In this document: positions 4,498 through 26,372 of the stretch, piece after piece
Numbering within the stretch: the first letter of the stretch is position 1
How the letters are laid out: each line of letters opens with the position of its first letter
Assembly: GCF_000337775.1 (NCBI RefSeq)
Contig: NZ_AOLQ01000031.1
Coordinates: 1 to 64,000, forward strand
DNA from: Haloarcula vallismortis ATCC 29715
GTDB lineage: Archaea; Halobacteriota; Halobacteria; Halobacteriales; Haloarculaceae
Length of the DNA: 64,000 nucleotides
Reading direction: 5' to 3'
Made by a program: the position numbers and the translations under genes
The notes under the pieces: model-generated
The model's input: the letters and a program-made list of their open reading frames with translations, nothing else
Told to the model about the DNA's origin: nothing
Database searches by the model: none

Positions 4498-6249
4498 CTA
4501 TTCTAGCGCGTCCAGCCGGAACTCGAACGCCGCTACAGGCAGTTCCAGATCGTGTTCGACGAGCACCTTCGGATGAATCTCGCCGATAACGCCGACCGAC
4601 TCACCGTCGAGGACTACTTCGGCGGCGCGGCCGTCGATGAACGACGGATGCGTGGTCGGCGGCGTTTCGAGGTCCTTGTCGAAGGCGTCCGCGAGCGCCT
4701 GCAGGCGGGCCTTGGCGTCCTCGTAGGAGGCGTCTGTCCGCGCGAGCGCGGCAGCGACGGTGCGGTGTTCGGCGACACCGGTGTTCTCGGAGTCGTCGAG
4801 ACCCGCGGCCAGCCCGATCTCGGCGAGGTCCTGCGGGTAGCTCCGGTGGGTGTTGCTCTCGAGCACCATCATGATCGAGGGGAGCGCCCACGTCCGGAGG
4901 ATGGTGTAGTCCTCGCTGTAGGGTTCCTGTATGGTGATTGGGTCGGCCAAGCCGACGGCGTCGGCGGCCTGCTCATCGGTCCCCGGGACCGGCAGCCCCA
5001 TCCGCTCGAAGTTCTCGACCTCGTTTATCATGTGGAAGTTCAGCAGGTCCTCGAAGCCCAAGCCGACGAGTGCGTCCCGAGCGGCGTCCTCCAGTCTGGA
5101 CCGTTCGTGGCGGCCGCCGACCGTCGATACGTCGGGATAGGTCGGTTCGAGGCTGTTGAACCCGAGCGCCCGGCCGATGTCGTCGATGATATCGAGCGGG
5201 TGGATGACGTCGACGCGGTAGGGCGGAACCTCAACCTCGTAGGCCACGCCGGCATCGGATTCCGTCTCGGTCGCATCGAGGCCGGCACGCTCGGCGTAGT
5301 CAATGACCTCGCGGCTGTCCAGCGAGACGCCGAGGATGGATTCGATGCGGTCGTGTGTAACCGTCTTCGTCCGTACCGAGAAGTCCGGCCGCTCCAGGGT
5401 CTTACCGGCGTACTCACCGGGCGCATCGTCGGCGTAGGACACGTCGACCCTCTCGACCTGGCCGCCGCGGGCGGCGAGCGCGTAGCAGACGATGTTACAC
5501 ATGTGATCGATGGTCCACTGGTCGGTCCCGGTCATCTCGATGAACAGGTCCCGGGAGTCAACGCTGACCTCGGTCCGGCGGCCGTTGATGACCGGTGGGA
5601 ACGAGAACAGGCCGATGGCGTCGTAGATGGCCGGCACACGGTCGAAGTCAGCCACGAGGTCGCCGTAGGTCTGGCCGGTCTCGTGGGACGCCATGACCTC
5701 GCTGGGGGTCATCTCCGCGTCGGCGTCCAGCGGCACGAACGTCGCCTCGTCGGGGTCGGCGCTGGTGTAGGTGATTGACTTGCCGGTCTCACCGGTGGCG
5801 GAGTCGCCTTTCAGCATCGTGAGGTCGTGGACCCCAATCGCGCCTTTCGCCCGCTTGCGCCCCATCGTCGCGTGAAGCTTCTCCTGAAGCTGGATGAGCG
5901 ACTCCAGTGCAGCCTCGTCCATATCCAGACCGCGGACGATAGCGCCGGTGACGTACGGGCGCTCGTCGGGCTGATCCTCGACCTCGATAGTCCAGTCGGC
6001 GCTGTTCGTGTTGGGAACCTCGACCCCGCGGTCGTCGCCGTAGTGGTAGCGCAGCGACCGCGCGACGCCTTCGACGGAGAGGCGGTCGAGTCGGTCCGGC
6101 GCGAACTCCAGTTGGAACTCGTCGTCCTCGGTCCAGCCCTCGAACTCAAGGCCGAGGTCGAACAGGTCCGACTTGAGTTCGTCGTCGTCTTTCTCGTCGT
6201 GGCCGGTCAGATACCGCAGTTCGTCCGGGTCGACATCGACGACCGGCAT
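4498..6249 (-). CDS. pheT: Phenylalanyl-tRNA synthetase beta subunit
   Basis: This 583-residue chain is the beta subunit of the (alpha-beta)2 enzyme that charges tRNA-Phe. It has the short archaeal/eukaryotic architecture rather than the ~800-residue bacterial form. The start MPVVDVDPDELRYLTGHDEKD is typical of the archaeal subunit. Visible landmarks are PYVTGAIVRGLDMDE (about 98-112), the B5-like segment PYRVDVIHPLDIIDDIGRAL near 335, and the catalytic-like domain with NFHMINEVENFERMG and the C-terminal GVIGEIHPKVLVEHDLELP. Its ATG overlaps the pheS stop by one base (TAATG), implying translational coupling and equal output of the two subunits. Confidence 0.97.
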   Translation of the reverse strand: MPVVDVDPDELRYLTGHDEKDDDELKSDLFDLGLEFEGWTEDDEFQLEFAPDRLDRLSVEGVARSLRYHYGDDRGVEVPNTNSADWTIEVEDQPDERPYVTGAIVRGLDMDEAALESLIQLQEKLHATMGRKRAKGAIGVHDLTMLKGDSATGETGKSITYTSADPDEATFVPLDADAEMTPSEVMASHETGQTYGDLVADFDRVPAIYDAIGLFSFPPVINGRRTEVSVDSRDLFIEMTGTDQWTIDHMCNIVCYALAARGGQVERVDVSYADDAPGEYAGKTLERPDFSVRTKTVTHDRIESILGVSLDSREVIDYAERAGLDATETESDAGVAYEVEVPPYRVDVIHPLDIIDDIGRALGFNSLEPTYPDVSTVGGRHERSRLEDAARDALVGLGFEDLLNFHMINEVENFERMGLPVPGTDEQAADAVGLADPITIQEPYSEDYTILRTWALPSIMMVLESNTHRSYPQDLAEIGLAAGLDDSENTGVAEHRTVAAALARTDASYEDAKARLQALADAFDKDLETPPTTHPSFIDGRAAEVVLDGESVGVIGEIHPKVLVEHDLELPVAAFEFRLDALE

Positions 6250-7760
6250 TAGCGCATCACCTCCGTCTCCCGCAGCAGTTCAAGGTCACACAGCGTCCCG
6301 TGCACGTCGCGGATGTCTTCGAAGCCGTACATAAGCATGAGTAGTCGTTCGAGCGAGAGGCCCCACGCCATCACGTCACAGTCAACCCCAAGGGGCGTGA
6401 GCACCTCGTCGCGGAAGATTCCGGAGTTGCCGACCTCGACGACCTCGCCGGTCTCGGGGTGGGTGCCGAACAGCTCGAAGCTCGGCTCCGTGTAGGGGTT
6501 GTAATGGGGCTTGAACTCCAGGTCGGTGATGCCGAACTGCTCGTAGAACTCCGTGAAGGTGCCCATCAGGTCCCGCACAGAGAGGTCCTCGGCCATCACC
6601 CACCCCTCGATCTGGAAGAACTCCAGCAGGTGGGTCGGGTCAAGCGTGTCGTTGCGGTACACCTTTTCGACGCTGAAGTAGCGTTCGGGCGGGTCGAGTT
6701 CGCCGACCTGATGGCCCGAGAGATAGCGCATCGACAGCGAGGTGGTGTGACCGCGCAGGTCCATCCCGCGGGCGATGTCCTCGGTCCACGGCGAGTGATA
6801 CCCCTCGCCGTCGGGGCCGACGCCCTCCTTGTGTGCCGAGCGGACCCGTTCGACGAGGTCCGGGGGGAGGTGGCCGATCTCCTCGGGTTCCTCCAGAGCG
6901 AACTGGTCCCAGTGGGTCCGGGCCGGGTGGTCCTGGGGCATGAACAGGCAGTCGTTGATCCAGAACTGCGCGTCGGCGTGGGGGCCTTCCATCTCCGAAA
7001 AGCCCATGCCGACGAGCGTGTCCTTCACGCGGTTGGCCGTCTGGCGGAGGATATGCTCCTTGCCGTGGCTCACGTCCTCGGCGTCGGCCTCGACGTTGTA
7101 CTCGGTGAAGGCCACGTCTTCCCACTCGCCGCTCGTGAGCAGCTCGGGGGTGAGCTGGTCGACGGTCTCGGCGGCTTCGACGCCCTCCATCAGCGCGGTG
7201 ACGCCGTCGTCAGTGAGTTGGATCGAACGAACAGTCTCCTCGCGGAGGTCGACGAGTCCACGCCGCGCAAGCTGGTCGAGCGCGTCCGCGTCGGCGTCTT
7301 CGACGCGTCCGTCGGCGACGGCTTCCAGCGCCAGCATTTCAGGGTCGGAGCCGGGGTCCGCGTCGGCGTTAGCCGTGATTTCGCCGCTGTCGATATCGCC
7401 GTAGGCCTTGCGAGCGTAGTTCGAGAGCGCGATGTCGACCGCGCCGCCTTCAAGACCGGATGCGCCGATGACCTGTCCCATCTGGACCGGGGCGTCAGCC
7501 GCGCCAGCGTCGATAGCGGCCTCGTAGAGGTCCTGTTCGGGCAGACTCTCCCGAACATACCGGTCGCCTTCCTCAGTCAGTTCGTAGTGTTCCAGCGTCT
7601 CCTCGGAGACGGCAAGCAGTCCGTCAGCTTCGAGTTCGAACGCCGCTCTGGTGGCCGCTTCCGGCTTGAGGTCAGCCTCCGCAGCCACGTCGTCGATGCG
7701 CCTGTCTTCCTGTGCGTCGGCGGCCTGCAGGACGGCCACCTGTGCCTGTGGTCGTTTCAT
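6249..7760 (-). CDS. pheS: Phenylalanyl-tRNA synthetase alpha subunit
   Basis: This 503-residue catalytic subunit activates phenylalanine and transfers it to tRNA-Phe. The N-terminal ~200 residues are the winged-helix repeats of archaeal/eukaryotic PheS. The class II core follows, with YRNDTLDPTHLLEFFQIEGW (motif 2), the Phe pocket segment PYTEPSFELFGTHPETGE, and motif 3 GLSLERLLMLMYGFEDIRD near the C-terminus. The start MKRPQAQVAVLQAADAQ matches the family N-terminus. The gene is separated from its TATA box (7978-7987) by about 220 nt of leader, which holds a short Phe-rich ORF at 7876-7956 and hairpins. Such a leader suggests control by phenylalanine supply (inference). Confidence 0.97.
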   Translation of the reverse strand: MKRPQAQVAVLQAADAQEDRRIDDVAAEADLKPEAATRAAFELEADGLLAVSEETLEHYELTEEGDRYVRESLPEQDLYEAAIDAGAADAPVQMGQVIGASGLEGGAVDIALSNYARKAYGDIDSGEITANADADPGSDPEMLALEAVADGRVEDADADALDQLARRGLVDLREETVRSIQLTDDGVTALMEGVEAAETVDQLTPELLTSGEWEDVAFTEYNVEADAEDVSHGKEHILRQTANRVKDTLVGMGFSEMEGPHADAQFWINDCLFMPQDHPARTHWDQFALEEPEEIGHLPPDLVERVRSAHKEGVGPDGEGYHSPWTEDIARGMDLRGHTTSLSMRYLSGHQVGELDPPERYFSVEKVYRNDTLDPTHLLEFFQIEGWVMAEDLSVRDLMGTFTEFYEQFGITDLEFKPHYNPYTEPSFELFGTHPETGEVVEVGNSGIFRDEVLTPLGVDCDVMAWGLSLERLLMLMYGFEDIRDVHGTLCDLELLRETEVMR

Positions 7761-7842
7761 ACGGGTGTCTCGGTCTTGTGGGGATAACCGCGGGTCGCTC
7801 AGTTAACGGTTCTCACTTCCCGCTCGCGGTTTCGTCCGAGGA

Positions 7843-7856
7843 GCGTCTCTCGACGC
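7843..7856 (-). promoter_or_regulatory. Hairpin in the pheST leader RNA
   Basis: The minus-strand RNA contains GCGUC-GAGA-GACGC, a 5-bp stem with a stable GNRA-type tetraloop, 20 nt after the stop of the leader ORF. A second inverted repeat, AACCGCG/CGCGGUU (7825-7831 with 7786-7792), ends 26 nt before the pheS start codon. These are candidate regulatory structures; no U-tract terminator is obvious. Confidence 0.45.
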
Positions 7857-7875
7857 CGTCGAAGTCCACGCGCGG

Positions 7876-7956
7876 TCAGGGAGCGAAAAAGAAGCCGAAC
7901 CCCGGACAGTCTGGTGGCTGGCGAGCAACAGCGGCACAGTGGGATTCGGATGCCAT
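7876..7956 (-). CDS. Phe-rich leader peptide upstream of pheST (candidate)
   Basis: The minus-strand ATG at 7956 opens a 26-codon ORF ending in TGA at 7876. The C-terminal end reads DCPGFGFFFAP: four of the last seven codons are Phe (TTC, TTC, TTT, TTC). A TATA box (TTTATATTC) at 7978-7987 places the transcript start within a few bases of this ATG, so the ORF would be the first, near-leaderless reading frame of the pheST mRNA. Hairpins follow between it and pheS. E. coli pheST is controlled by the Phe-rich PheM leader peptide through attenuation; the layout here is analogous, but the sequence is unrelated. That it is translated and regulatory is inference. Confidence 0.55.
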   Translation of the reverse strand: MASESHCAAVARQPPDCPGFGFFFAP

Positions 7957-7977
7957 GTCTGAGCGGTTGTGACTGGT

Positions 7978-7987
7978 GAATATAAAC
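7978..7987 (-). promoter_or_regulatory. TATA box of the pheST operon
   Basis: The minus strand reads CGTTTATATTCACC. The box centre lies about 27 nt before the A of the leader ORF ATG at 7956, so the leader ORF, not pheS (7760), sits at the transcript 5' end. Confidence 0.7.
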
Positions 7988-8035
7988 GTTGTGCGTGTAC
8001 TTCTCTCGACACGAGAAGGGGTCTCGGCCCGGTTC

Positions 8036-9685
8036 TTAGTCCGCGCTCGTCGGCGCGCGGTCGGAGTCGAGATCGATGTCGAGCTCGTCGAGCTTGTCCG
8101 CCCACTCCTCGCGTTTCTCCTGATGGTCTTCGAGGAACTCGGCCATCAGTTCGGCGGCCTGCTCCTTGCAGCCGCCACAGAGCCGTTCGCCGCCGACGCA
8201 CTCGTCGTACACTTCCTTGGCGAACTCGTCGTCGTCGCCCGACAGCAGGTACGCGTACAGTTCGTACACCGGGCACTCGTCAGCCTTCCCGCCCTTCTCG
8301 CGCTGTTCCTCGGCCGTGGAGCGGCCGCCAGTGGTCGCCGACTTGACTTTGTCGTAGCCGTCCTCCGGGTCGTCCAGCAGGGAGATGTGCGAGGCCGGAA
8401 TCGAGGAGGACATCTTGCCGCCGGTGAGGCCGGTCATGAACCGATGGTAGATAGACGACGGTGGCTGGAAGCCGTAGCCGCCGTTGTCGAGTTCGACCTG
8501 CCGGGCCAGTTCCTCGGCCTCAGCGTGGTCCAGGTCGAACGTGTCGATGTGTTCGTCATACACCCGCTTCTCCCCGTCGATAGTCTCGATGAGCGCCTCG
8601 AAGGCCTCGGCAGTCGCGTTGCGGTCGAGGAACCGGGTGCGGGGGCGAAGCGGTTCTTTCCCTGCCTCGTCGAGTTTGGCGACGACGGACTCGCGGGCGT
8701 CGGCGGGCGCTGGCTGGTGGTCGCGCAGCCAGTCGGCGGCCTCGCCACAGCGGGGCCGGTCTGGCTCCTCGGCGTACTCCTCGCGGGCGTCGTAGGCCTG
8801 CCGGAGCAGCGTCCGTTCAACAGCGTCGGCCTCGAAACTGGCGAAGGCCTCCGTCACGCCGAAGTACCGCATCCGCGCGGCGAGGTCTCGCGCCAGCCGC
8901 ATGTGCGGGTCTTGGTCCGGACCGACGGGGATAACCGTCGGCTTCGGCCCATCCAGTTGCGGGTAGAGGATGTCGGCCATCTGTGTGACGACCGACTGCA
9001 TGTGGGAGACATCCGTCTCGCCGTCGAAGTCGTAGATGGCCTGCAGCTCCGAGAAGTTCGCCTCCGCGCCGAGTTCGAACGCGAGGTCCTGCACTTCACG
9101 GTTATCCGACTGACGGTACAGTGTGCCCTCATCGGGGTCGAAACCGAGCGCAAGCAGCGAGAGGATGTAGTTCGTCGCGTGCTCGTCGATTTCGTCCCAC
9201 GAAAGCCCGCGGGCGCTGTGGGCTTCGAGGTCCGCGATGAGCGCGAACGCGTCCCCGCCCTGCTGTTGGTGCCAGATGATCTCGTCGAAGACGAGCTTGT
9301 GGCCGATGTGCGGGTCGCCGGTCGGCATGAACCCCGACAGCGCGGCGAAGGGGTCGTCGTTGCGCATCGCCTCGGCGACGGGTCGGTAGTCCCGGTGGCC
9401 GAAGATGACGCCTCGCCGCATCAGGTAGTGCGGGTTGGGGACTTCGGGCAAGACCTCGTCGAACGCTTCGATGCCGAACTGCTCAAACAGCTTGCGGTAG
9501 TCGGCGATGGTCGATGAGCCCCACGGGTCGAGCGTCGCCTCGTCAGCGCCTTCGGCCTCGGTGCCGCCGTCCGGAAGCACCGGCTCGTCGACGGCGCGAG
9601 TGTCGGACTCCCGCCACTCTCCGCCCGACTGGCGGCGGTCCTCGTCGGGCGATGCGTCGTCGTGATGGGAGTCGTCCGTTGTCAT
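8036..9685 (-). CDS. trpS: Tryptophanyl-tRNA synthetase
   Basis: This 549-residue class I synthetase charges tRNA-Trp. It is of the long archaeal/eukaryotic type. A very acidic extension of about 50 residues precedes the catalytic domain. The HIGH signature is PTGDPHIGHK (121-130), the tRNA/ATP loop is GGKMSSS in the second half, and GPDQDPHMRLARD is the family ATP/Trp segment. The C-terminal part has a Cys cluster (DECVGGERLCGGCKEQ) seen in archaeal TrpRS. I chose Met at 9685 over a GTG nine codons upstream. It lies directly downstream of endA, which fits biology: haloarchaeal pre-tRNA-Trp carries an intron that EndA removes. Confidence 0.95.
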   Translation of the reverse strand: MTTDDSHHDDASPDEDRRQSGGEWRESDTRAVDEPVLPDGGTEAEGADEATLDPWGSSTIADYRKLFEQFGIEAFDEVLPEVPNPHYLMRRGVIFGHRDYRPVAEAMRNDDPFAALSGFMPTGDPHIGHKLVFDEIIWHQQQGGDAFALIADLEAHSARGLSWDEIDEHATNYILSLLALGFDPDEGTLYRQSDNREVQDLAFELGAEANFSELQAIYDFDGETDVSHMQSVVTQMADILYPQLDGPKPTVIPVGPDQDPHMRLARDLAARMRYFGVTEAFASFEADAVERTLLRQAYDAREEYAEEPDRPRCGEAADWLRDHQPAPADARESVVAKLDEAGKEPLRPRTRFLDRNATAEAFEALIETIDGEKRVYDEHIDTFDLDHAEAEELARQVELDNGGYGFQPPSSIYHRFMTGLTGGKMSSSIPASHISLLDDPEDGYDKVKSATTGGRSTAEEQREKGGKADECPVYELYAYLLSGDDDEFAKEVYDECVGGERLCGGCKEQAAELMAEFLEDHQEKREEWADKLDELDIDLDSDRAPTSAD

Positions 9686-9779
9686 GGATGTGCTCGGCTC
9701 GCGGTGAGCCACGTTACAGGTGCTTTGGTTCCGGTCGGCGCAAAAAGGGTTCGTTTCCGAGCGCCGCCCGCGAGACGGT

Positions 9780-25086: not shown

Positions 25087-25902
25087 ATGACCACTGTTAC
25101 CCTGGGTCCTGAGGGGACCTACTCCCACCGCGCCGCACAGGCAGTCACCGACGACGAAATCGGCTTCTCTGAGTCAGTGACCGCCATCGTCGAGGCGGTC
25201 GCGGAGGGCGAGGCCGAGCGTGGTGTCGTTCCCGTCGAAAACAGCATCGAAGGCTCCGTCACGGAATCACTCGACGCTTTCGCGGAGTACGATATCGCCG
25301 TCGTCGAGGAGATCATCACGCCCATCCGTCACGCCCTGCTCGCACAGGACGACTCCTTCTCGTTGGTGGCCAGCCACGCACAGGCGCTGGCACAGTGTCG
25401 CGGCTGGCTCGACGAGCACTACCCTGGCGTCAATGTGGAGGCCGTCGCATCGACCGCCCGCGGCGTCGAGCGCGCCCGCGCCGACGCGGACATCGCCGCT
25501 ATCGGTCACCCAGAAAACGCGACCAACGGCACCGAACTGAAGGTGCTCGCCGAGGACATTCAGGACCGGTCTTCGAACGCGACCCGCTTCGTCGTCGTTG
25601 CCCCGACAGGCGAGCGCAGCGAGGCCGGCGGGAAGAGTTCCTTCATTGTCTATCCCGACGTTGACTACCCCGGCCTGTTGCTCGAACTGCTGGAGCCCTT
25701 CGCCGACCGCGATATCAACCTCACCCGCGTCGAGTCCCGGCCAAGCGGCGAGCGACTGGGCGACTACGTCTTCCACATCGACATCTCGGCGGGGCTGTAC
25801 GAGCAGCGCACGCAGGCGGCACTCACCGATATCGAGGAGATCGCCGAGAAGGGCTGGGTCCGCCGGCTTGGATCGTACGACTCGCGGACGGTCGTCAACT
25901 GA
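25087..25902 (+). CDS. pheA: Prephenate dehydratase
   Basis: This 271-residue monofunctional enzyme turns prephenate into phenylpyruvate in Phe synthesis. The N-terminal catalytic domain begins TLGPEGTYSHRAAQAV and includes VPVENSIEGSVTESLD and the signature SSNATRFVVV. The C-terminal ACT domain (about 195-271) contains DINLTRVESRPSGERLGDYVFH, where Phe normally binds and inhibits. There is no fused chorismate mutase domain. In haloarchaea this is a stand-alone gene. The 75-nt upstream region has a 14-codon ORF (25046-25090) ending over the pheA ATG, but it has no Phe codons. Confidence 0.95.
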   Translation: MTTVTLGPEGTYSHRAAQAVTDDEIGFSESVTAIVEAVAEGEAERGVVPVENSIEGSVTESLDAFAEYDIAVVEEIITPIRHALLAQDDSFSLVASHAQALAQCRGWLDEHYPGVNVEAVASTARGVERARADADIAAIGHPENATNGTELKVLAEDIQDRSSNATRFVVVAPTGERSEAGGKSSFIVYPDVDYPGLLLELLEPFADRDINLTRVESRPSGERLGDYVFHIDISAGLYEQRTQAALTDIEEIAEKGWVRRLGSYDSRTVVN

Positions 25903-25964
25903 GCCGGTGGGACATCGCCGACCGCGGTTCAAGCGTTAAGTTCCGGGCACGTGTACCCCCGCGT

Positions 25965-26372
25965 ATGTCAGATCGCGATCCGTTCAGCGAAATCGAGCGC
26001 GCGTTCGATATGCTGGGAGAGCAGTTCGGCGTCGACATGGGCGCTGTCCCGGTCGACGTCGTCGACGAGGGCGACGCCTTCGTCGTCCACGCAGACCTGC
26101 CCGGCTACGACAGCGAGGACATCGACGTCCAGCTCGTCGAGGAACGGGAGCTCACCATCAGCGCTACGTCAAGCCAGGAGCAAGAATCGAGCGACGGCCA
26201 GTACGTCCAGCGCGAGCGCCGCCAGCAGTCACTGAGCCGGTCGGTCCGCCTCCCCGAAGCCGTCGATGACGAGGGGACTACTGCGAGCTACGATGACGGC
26301 GTCCTCACGGTCCGGCTGGCGAAGGTCGTACACAGCGAGGACGACGACGGCACAGATATCCCAGTGAACTGA
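25965..26372 (+). CDS. Hsp20-type small heat shock protein
   Basis: This 135-residue protein has a short N-terminus (FSEIERAFDMLGEQFG), then an alpha-crystallin domain: DVVDEGDAFVVHADLPGY, EDIDVQLVEERELTISA, the loop region rich in Gln/Ser, SLSRSVRLPEAVDDEGTTAS and YDDGVLTVRLAK. These are the conserved A-x-x-x-DGVL elements. It should prevent aggregation of unfolded proteins as an oligomer. The peroxiredoxin gene follows two bases after its stop, so both may be co-transcribed in stress response (inference). Confidence 0.9.
   Translation: MSDRDPFSEIERAFDMLGEQFGVDMGAVPVDVVDEGDAFVVHADLPGYDSEDIDVQLVEERELTISATSSQEQESSDGQYVQRERRQQSLSRSVRLPEAVDDEGTTASYDDGVLTVRLAKVVHSEDDDGTDIPVN

Follow-up and report, generated by a model that had tools for sequence, protein, structure and literature searches.

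The 64-kb stretch of Haloarcula vallismortis DNA analysed here, referred to as the window, carries on its minus strand, in this order, trpS, a leader promoter, a 26-codon open reading frame (ORF), a hairpin termed hairpin B, a 14-nt element and the genes pheS and pheT (Table 1). A sequence-only reading of the same DNA had proposed a Phe-rich leader peptide ahead of pheST, and the anatomy that it described was borne out. The ORF ends in GFGFFFAP and has four Phe among its last seven codons, a TATA box stands upstream (in the window ~27 nt ahead of the leader ATG), 115 nt separate the leader stop from the pheS ATG at 7760, and the genes downstream are indeed those of the two phenylalanine--tRNA ligase subunits. 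The proposed GNRA-capped hairpin is real as well, with a GAGA loop in the window, although the GNRA cap is not conserved elsewhere. A second helix (stem A), the internal loop of hairpin B and a Trp-codon counterpart before a class of trpS are additions beyond that reading.

Table 1. Features of the pheST leader region and flanking genes, with positions in the window.
Feature	Position	Strand	Basis
trpS, upstream of the leader	8036-9712	minus	NF008928, E=0
TATA box TTTATA of the leader promoter, CACAACG just before	7981..7986	minus	sequence
Leader ORF, 26 codons, MASESHCAAVARQPPDCPGFGFFFAP; ATG expected to be the transcript 5' end	7876..7956	minus	sequence and conserved relatives
Stem A, 5' arm, CCGAATCCC, codons 3-6	7941..7949	minus	covariation with 3' arm
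Stem A, 3' arm, GGGGTTCGG, Gly-Phe-Gly codons	7895..7903	minus	covariation with 5' arm
Phe codon 20, inside stem A	7897-7899	minus	
Phe codons 22-24, TTC TTT TTC, linker between stem A and hairpin B	7885..7893	minus	conserved Phe, TTC/TTT exchange
Hairpin B: outer stem, internal loop, variable inner stem, GAGA loop	7822..7876	minus	model match and covariation
Hairpin B internal loop TGGAC / CGAAA	7864-7868 / 7830-7834	minus	
Proximal element GAACCGTTAACTGA, upstream of pheS	7799..7812	minus	kept with and without the leader elsewhere
pheS, phenylalanine--tRNA ligase alpha subunit	6249..7760	minus	NF003210, 580 bits, E=4e-174
pheT, phenylalanine--tRNA ligase beta subunit	4498..6249	minus	TIGR00471, 410 bits, E=1e-122

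The leader peptide matched no family in Pfam or NCBIfam. When the 64-kb window was scanned for short ORFs combining a residue cluster with an internal stem, the pheS leader was the only one located behind a TATA box. No Phe leader stands in front of pheA (prephenate dehydratase, PF00800; window positions 25088-25975, plus strand), and no leader of a similar kind was found in the same genome before genes of the families PF00800, PF00425, PF00587, PF00579 and PF00133, a comparison restricted to these chosen genes (pheA, chorismate-binding enzymes and other synthetases) without a whole-genome leader search.

In a tblastn search with the 26-aa peptide, 39 of 146 genomes of the family gave a match, one each, and upstream of pheS in many genera most loci show a short ORF terminating near GFGFFFA. 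A Phe-rich short ORF precedes pheS in 65 of 79 haloarchaeal loci, compared with 0.2% of shuffled loci, a conservation far beyond chance. A profile of the peptide found matches in 126 of 242 Halobacteria genomes (45 of 74 genera); divergent leaders are missed at this sensitivity, and the weakest matches were not inspected singly. Absence of such an ORF from related genomes would have refuted the leader, and this refutation failed. Conservation of the peptide is poor over residues 6-18. In 73 of 80 loci, the promoter box begins at position -30 relative to the leader ATG, whereas a comparable box occurs in only 0.4% of windows within the pheS coding sequence, and a box exactly 30 nt before the ATG matches the expectation for a leaderless transcript. 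Both the leader and hairpin B are missing in 9 of the 79 loci, loci without the leader likewise lacking the hairpin, which indicates that pheST is able to work without them. Hairpin B is present in Halomicrobium katesii (L066) next to a leader ORF that has seemingly decayed, with no ATG at the expected place, and in a MAG (L016) next to one that looks frameshifted; these are possibly recent losses or sequence errors. In four Natrinema loci (L048, L050, L051, L056), the ORF is extended by in-frame insertions or duplications in the stem A loop, with both arms retained.

A study of transcription start sites in Haloferax volcanii listed 16 upstream ORFs (uORFs) in long 5'-UTRs, among them a 26-aa uORF with a pI of 5.9 in the 150-250 nt 5'-UTR of pheS and a 23-aa uORF before the gene of a tryptophan--tRNA ligase, in both cases with no further start at the main gene (PMC4983044, Table 2). 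The uORF before pheS is hence already in print, a point absent from the sequence-only reading; the published list carries no comment on Phe or Trp codons, structure, conservation across Halobacteria, regulation or attenuation (PMC4983044). Several of the Haloferax leaders that we examined have 26 aa, a pI of 5.94 and ~212 nt from the leader ATG to pheS. The printed uORF mass (2772) equals that of none of the species examined, among which H. volcanii itself was not included, and only length, pI and distance, without comparison of the sequences, support equating our leader with the published uORF. The leader is probably cotranscribed with pheS; a transcript start downstream of 7876, which would have spoken against the leader, finds no support in the H. 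volcanii map, which has no start nearer pheS (PMC4983044).

Stem A lies within the ORF and joins codons 3-6 (CCGAAUCCC) to the Gly-Phe-Gly codons (GGGGUUCGG) through 9 pairs. In an anchored scan, this pairing was kept in 98% of cells. In a set of 51 distinct arm pairs, double changes were observed in 35 cells versus 4.1 after shuffling, with none of 500 shuffles as high, and arms slid out of register paired at 62% at most. The pairing also survives large replacements of both arms, as in L022/L028 (CCGGACUCC/GGAGUCCGG) and L060/L064 (GUCGGACG/CGUCCGAC). The glutamate codon in stem A is GAA 73 times and GAG once, while pheS favours GAG, a bias consistent with RNA pairing. Because of this pairing, the conserved N-terminal SE[S/P] is best read as a feature of the RNA and not of the peptide. 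Kinship among the sequences is not fully corrected for in the covariation controls used for either helix.

Hairpin B follows the leader stop; its outer stem and its variable inner stem are separated by a symmetric internal loop (YGGAC/YGAAA). The copy in the window matches our model R1 with 36.5 bits (E=7e-6). Among 18 sequences, 11 of 15 pairs show double changes, with a covariation of 0.514 versus 0.211 after shuffling; the corresponding values for 69 distinct model hits, a set that takes in a few matches outside the pheS leader, were 0.546 versus 0.178. The outer stem is shifted or bulged within Haloarcula and is therefore the weaker part. Nothing credible was obtained with Rfam on the leader region, and the T-box among the Rfam models gave no match up to E=5 at positions 7500-8300; the internal loop does not fit a K-turn, a hammerhead or a T-box. 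Hairpin B was also considered as a common haloarchaeal element, an idea that we rejected: in 21 whole genomes, the pheS site was the best match wherever that match was strong, and the secondary matches that were inspected lie in coding sequence and look like chance. With these helices, the comparison proposed by the sequence-only reading has been carried out, and other Halobacteria carry the conserved short ORF, the clustered Phe codons, the synonymous TTC/TTT changes and the covarying hairpins that it had called for.

Stem A and hairpin B neither overlap nor share an arm, and the anchored all-against-all scan detected no third covarying helix in the leader region. Stem A ends 25-32 nt (SD 1.6) ahead of the hairpin B internal loop, and a gain or loss of one or two codons in the ORF is offset by a hairpin B that lies correspondingly nearer to the stop or further from it (r=-0.68). 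At the level of compared sequences, the ORF with its cognate codons, the position of the promoter and the two helices at a fixed spacing can be regarded as established. Pairing of the Phe tract or of the proximal element with other parts was considered as well, and no convincing covariation was found. Insertions with terminal inverted repeats that resemble small mobile elements lie between hairpin B and pheS in L006/L095 and L104, and between the leader stop and hairpin B in L022.

A leader that appears, from its sequence, to share this design precedes one class of trpS in Halobacteria. In Haloferax and Natronorubrum, plasmid-borne trpS genes are preceded by a 23-aa leader with the pattern MVSTS..CWRW..EVDS.AV, and 30 of 36 loci of the class (L148-L149, L153-L162, L165-L171, L173-L183) carry a W-X-W leader with its own stem A, which spans 8-13 pairs from the start of the ORF to the sequence past the Trp codons. 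Double changes in this stem were found in 17 cells versus 6.2 after shuffling, and 0 of 500 shuffles were as high. A hairpin and a GCUC[A/C]CU motif lie downstream in most loci. In L150, L152, L163 and L164 (some Natrinema, Haloprofundus and related), a short GTG-started ORF has a single Trp codon directly ahead of an early stop; stem A is retained, and the leader seems reduced. The trpS of the window belongs to a different class, and the 64-kb scan found no W-X-W leader before it.

Phe codons before the PheRS genes and Trp codons before a TrpRS gene argue strongly for the sensing of charged tRNA by ribosome stalling, and this is our strongest argument. We propose that the leader is a cis-acting translation sensor that would adjust pheST expression to the amount of charged tRNA-Phe available, which we consider very probable as a whole. 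We are slightly more confident still of the sensing part, in which translation and stalling are inferred, and rate the specific output step well below it, at about even chances. The suggestion of stalling on Phe codons in the sequence-only reading gains support from these comparisons and from the Trp counterpart; stalling and an effect on expression are still inferences, as are the direction of the response and a target in transcription or RNA processing and not in pheS translation. All evidence is comparative, without expression data under Phe limitation, footprints or mapped RNA ends inside the leader.

According to this model, the leaderless transcript would begin at the leader ATG and ribosomes would translate the 26 codons. 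With plentiful Phe-tRNA, they would pass the Phe codons and finish, leaving stem A free to re-form behind them, and a ribosome at the stop would cover the outer stem of hairpin B. With scarce Phe-tRNA, a ribosome would be parked on the Phe codons with the 3' arm of stem A inside it, keeping stem A open, while hairpin B would stay folded. The edge of the ribosome footprint lies ~12 nt beyond the A site, and by inference a ribosome on Phe codon 24 would reach approximately to the stop codon, with stem A open and hairpin B intact. The stalled state would raise pheST expression; most probably, RNA polymerase would be able to transcribe beyond the leader, or the leader would escape cleavage. We favour such control of elongation or of leader cleavage, for which aCPSF1/FttA would be a candidate factor.

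The output might instead be pheS translation, with a stalled ribosome refolding the RNA such that the pheS start becomes exposed, as in erm-type systems. This is a variant of our explanation that differs in the output step only, and for that step we consider it unlikely. It would fit a common transcript of leader and pheS and the lack of a terminator U-tract after hairpin B, where the longest T-run in the next 40 nt is 1-3 in all 80 loci. However, no conserved helix reaching the pheS start was found, including with the 14 nt ahead of the ATG, and the stretch between hairpin B and pheS can be as short as 55 nt or as long as 174 nt (SD 27) and accommodates insertions with inverted repeats (L006, L104). 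The erm-type requirement of a structure hiding the start of the main gene is not met, and the free spacing together with the absence of a conserved helix at the pheS start argues against such hiding.

A terminator-like RNA without codon sensing would require only that stem A and the U-rich tract CUUCUUUUUC terminate or cleave a fixed fraction of transcripts, the Phe codons being a by-product of U-richness. TTT accounts for 27% of the Phe codons in the linker but 5% in pheS, a T-run of at least five is present in 45 of 80 loci, and in archaea aCPSF1 brings about termination together with terminator U-tracts (PMC8716108). Some selection, either for U-rich sequence or for the less common Phe codon, is likely behind the TTT enrichment, which leaves room for a role of a U-tract. 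Against this explanation, 35 of the 80 loci have no T-run of five, and the Trp codons of the trpS leader are not U-rich. Furthermore, of 80 loci, 77, 72 and 72 keep Phe at the three linker positions, TTC and TTT being interchanged, and the replacements (Val, Ser, Thr, Gly, Ala, Pro and single others) are not the CTN/TCN codons (Leu/Ser) expected for a pyrimidine tract. We consider this explanation very unlikely.

An element, GGAACCGNTAACTGA, located ~30-50 nt upstream of the pheS ATG is conserved even in the absence of the leader; it was noted at 7799-7812 in the window and in L037, L053, L062, L073, L077 and L080. Its retention in genomes without the leader rules it out as a partner of the leader RNA, and it is possibly a promoter used in other conditions, or an operator. 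In H. volcanii, no start is listed at a pheS-proximal position (PMC4983044). That the ORF is an independent small protein gene and pheST runs from its own promoter at this element (GAACCGNTAACTGA), as its persistence at loci lacking the leader ORF might suggest, appears highly improbable, given the lack of an additional pheS start in H. volcanii (PMC4983044), the poorly conserved middle of the peptide, the explanation of SE[S/P] by RNA pairing, and the coincidence that would be needed to place Phe before PheRS and Trp before TrpRS.

The proposed translation sensor can be compared with known systems. E. coli pheST (through pheM), trp and pheA are controlled by ribosome-mediated transcription attenuation. 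The haloarchaeal leader resembles them in its short ORF with codons for the amino acid of the downstream enzyme and in RNA helices that adjoin the sensing codons, and pheM shares even the target gene. Clustered cognate codons, as in trp/pheST-type attenuators, are present here (Phe, and Trp in the counterpart), but the anchored scan revealed no mutually exclusive, arm-sharing helices, and none of the 80 loci has an intrinsic terminator of hairpin and U-tract between ORF and gene. Unlike those attenuators, the archaeal leader is leaderless, and its peptide and RNA are unrelated in sequence. The missing U-tract after hairpin B and the lack of a shared arm speak against the leader being a copy of the bacterial mechanism. 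T-box riboswitches of bacterial synthetase genes bind tRNA directly and do not need leader translation; both systems would place aminoacyl-tRNA synthetase genes under the control of tRNA charging, although the haloarchaeal leader has no T-box or other credible Rfam match. The gene of an auxiliary TrpRS in Streptomyces is reportedly controlled by terminator-based, ribosome-mediated attenuation with Trp codons in the leader; the haloarchaeal trpS leader likewise places Trp codons before a TrpRS gene, though the Streptomyces system is bacterial and without known relation. To our knowledge, no case of amino-acid-specific leader-peptide attenuation has been established in archaea, and none was found in the literature, for which only open-licence papers were considered.

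More tentatively, and with somewhat less than even confidence, we suggest that pheST and trpS share a class of tRNA-charging sensors with a logic of its own, in which two helices that do not overlap are arranged such that the position of the ribosome, on the sensing codons or at the stop, would pick the helix that is open. The output would be exerted not by an intrinsic terminator but through an archaeal factor such as FttA/aCPSF1, which would recognise either the hairpin B internal loop or the U-rich linker once exposed. Judged by the published start-site data, H. volcanii apparently carries both leaders, making tests feasible in a standard laboratory strain. If the proposal is true, stalling-based control of synthetase genes arose independently in archaea, with another RNA architecture and in a leaderless leader, and it would offer a clean genetic test of archaeal transcription-translation coupling and of what termination factors sense.
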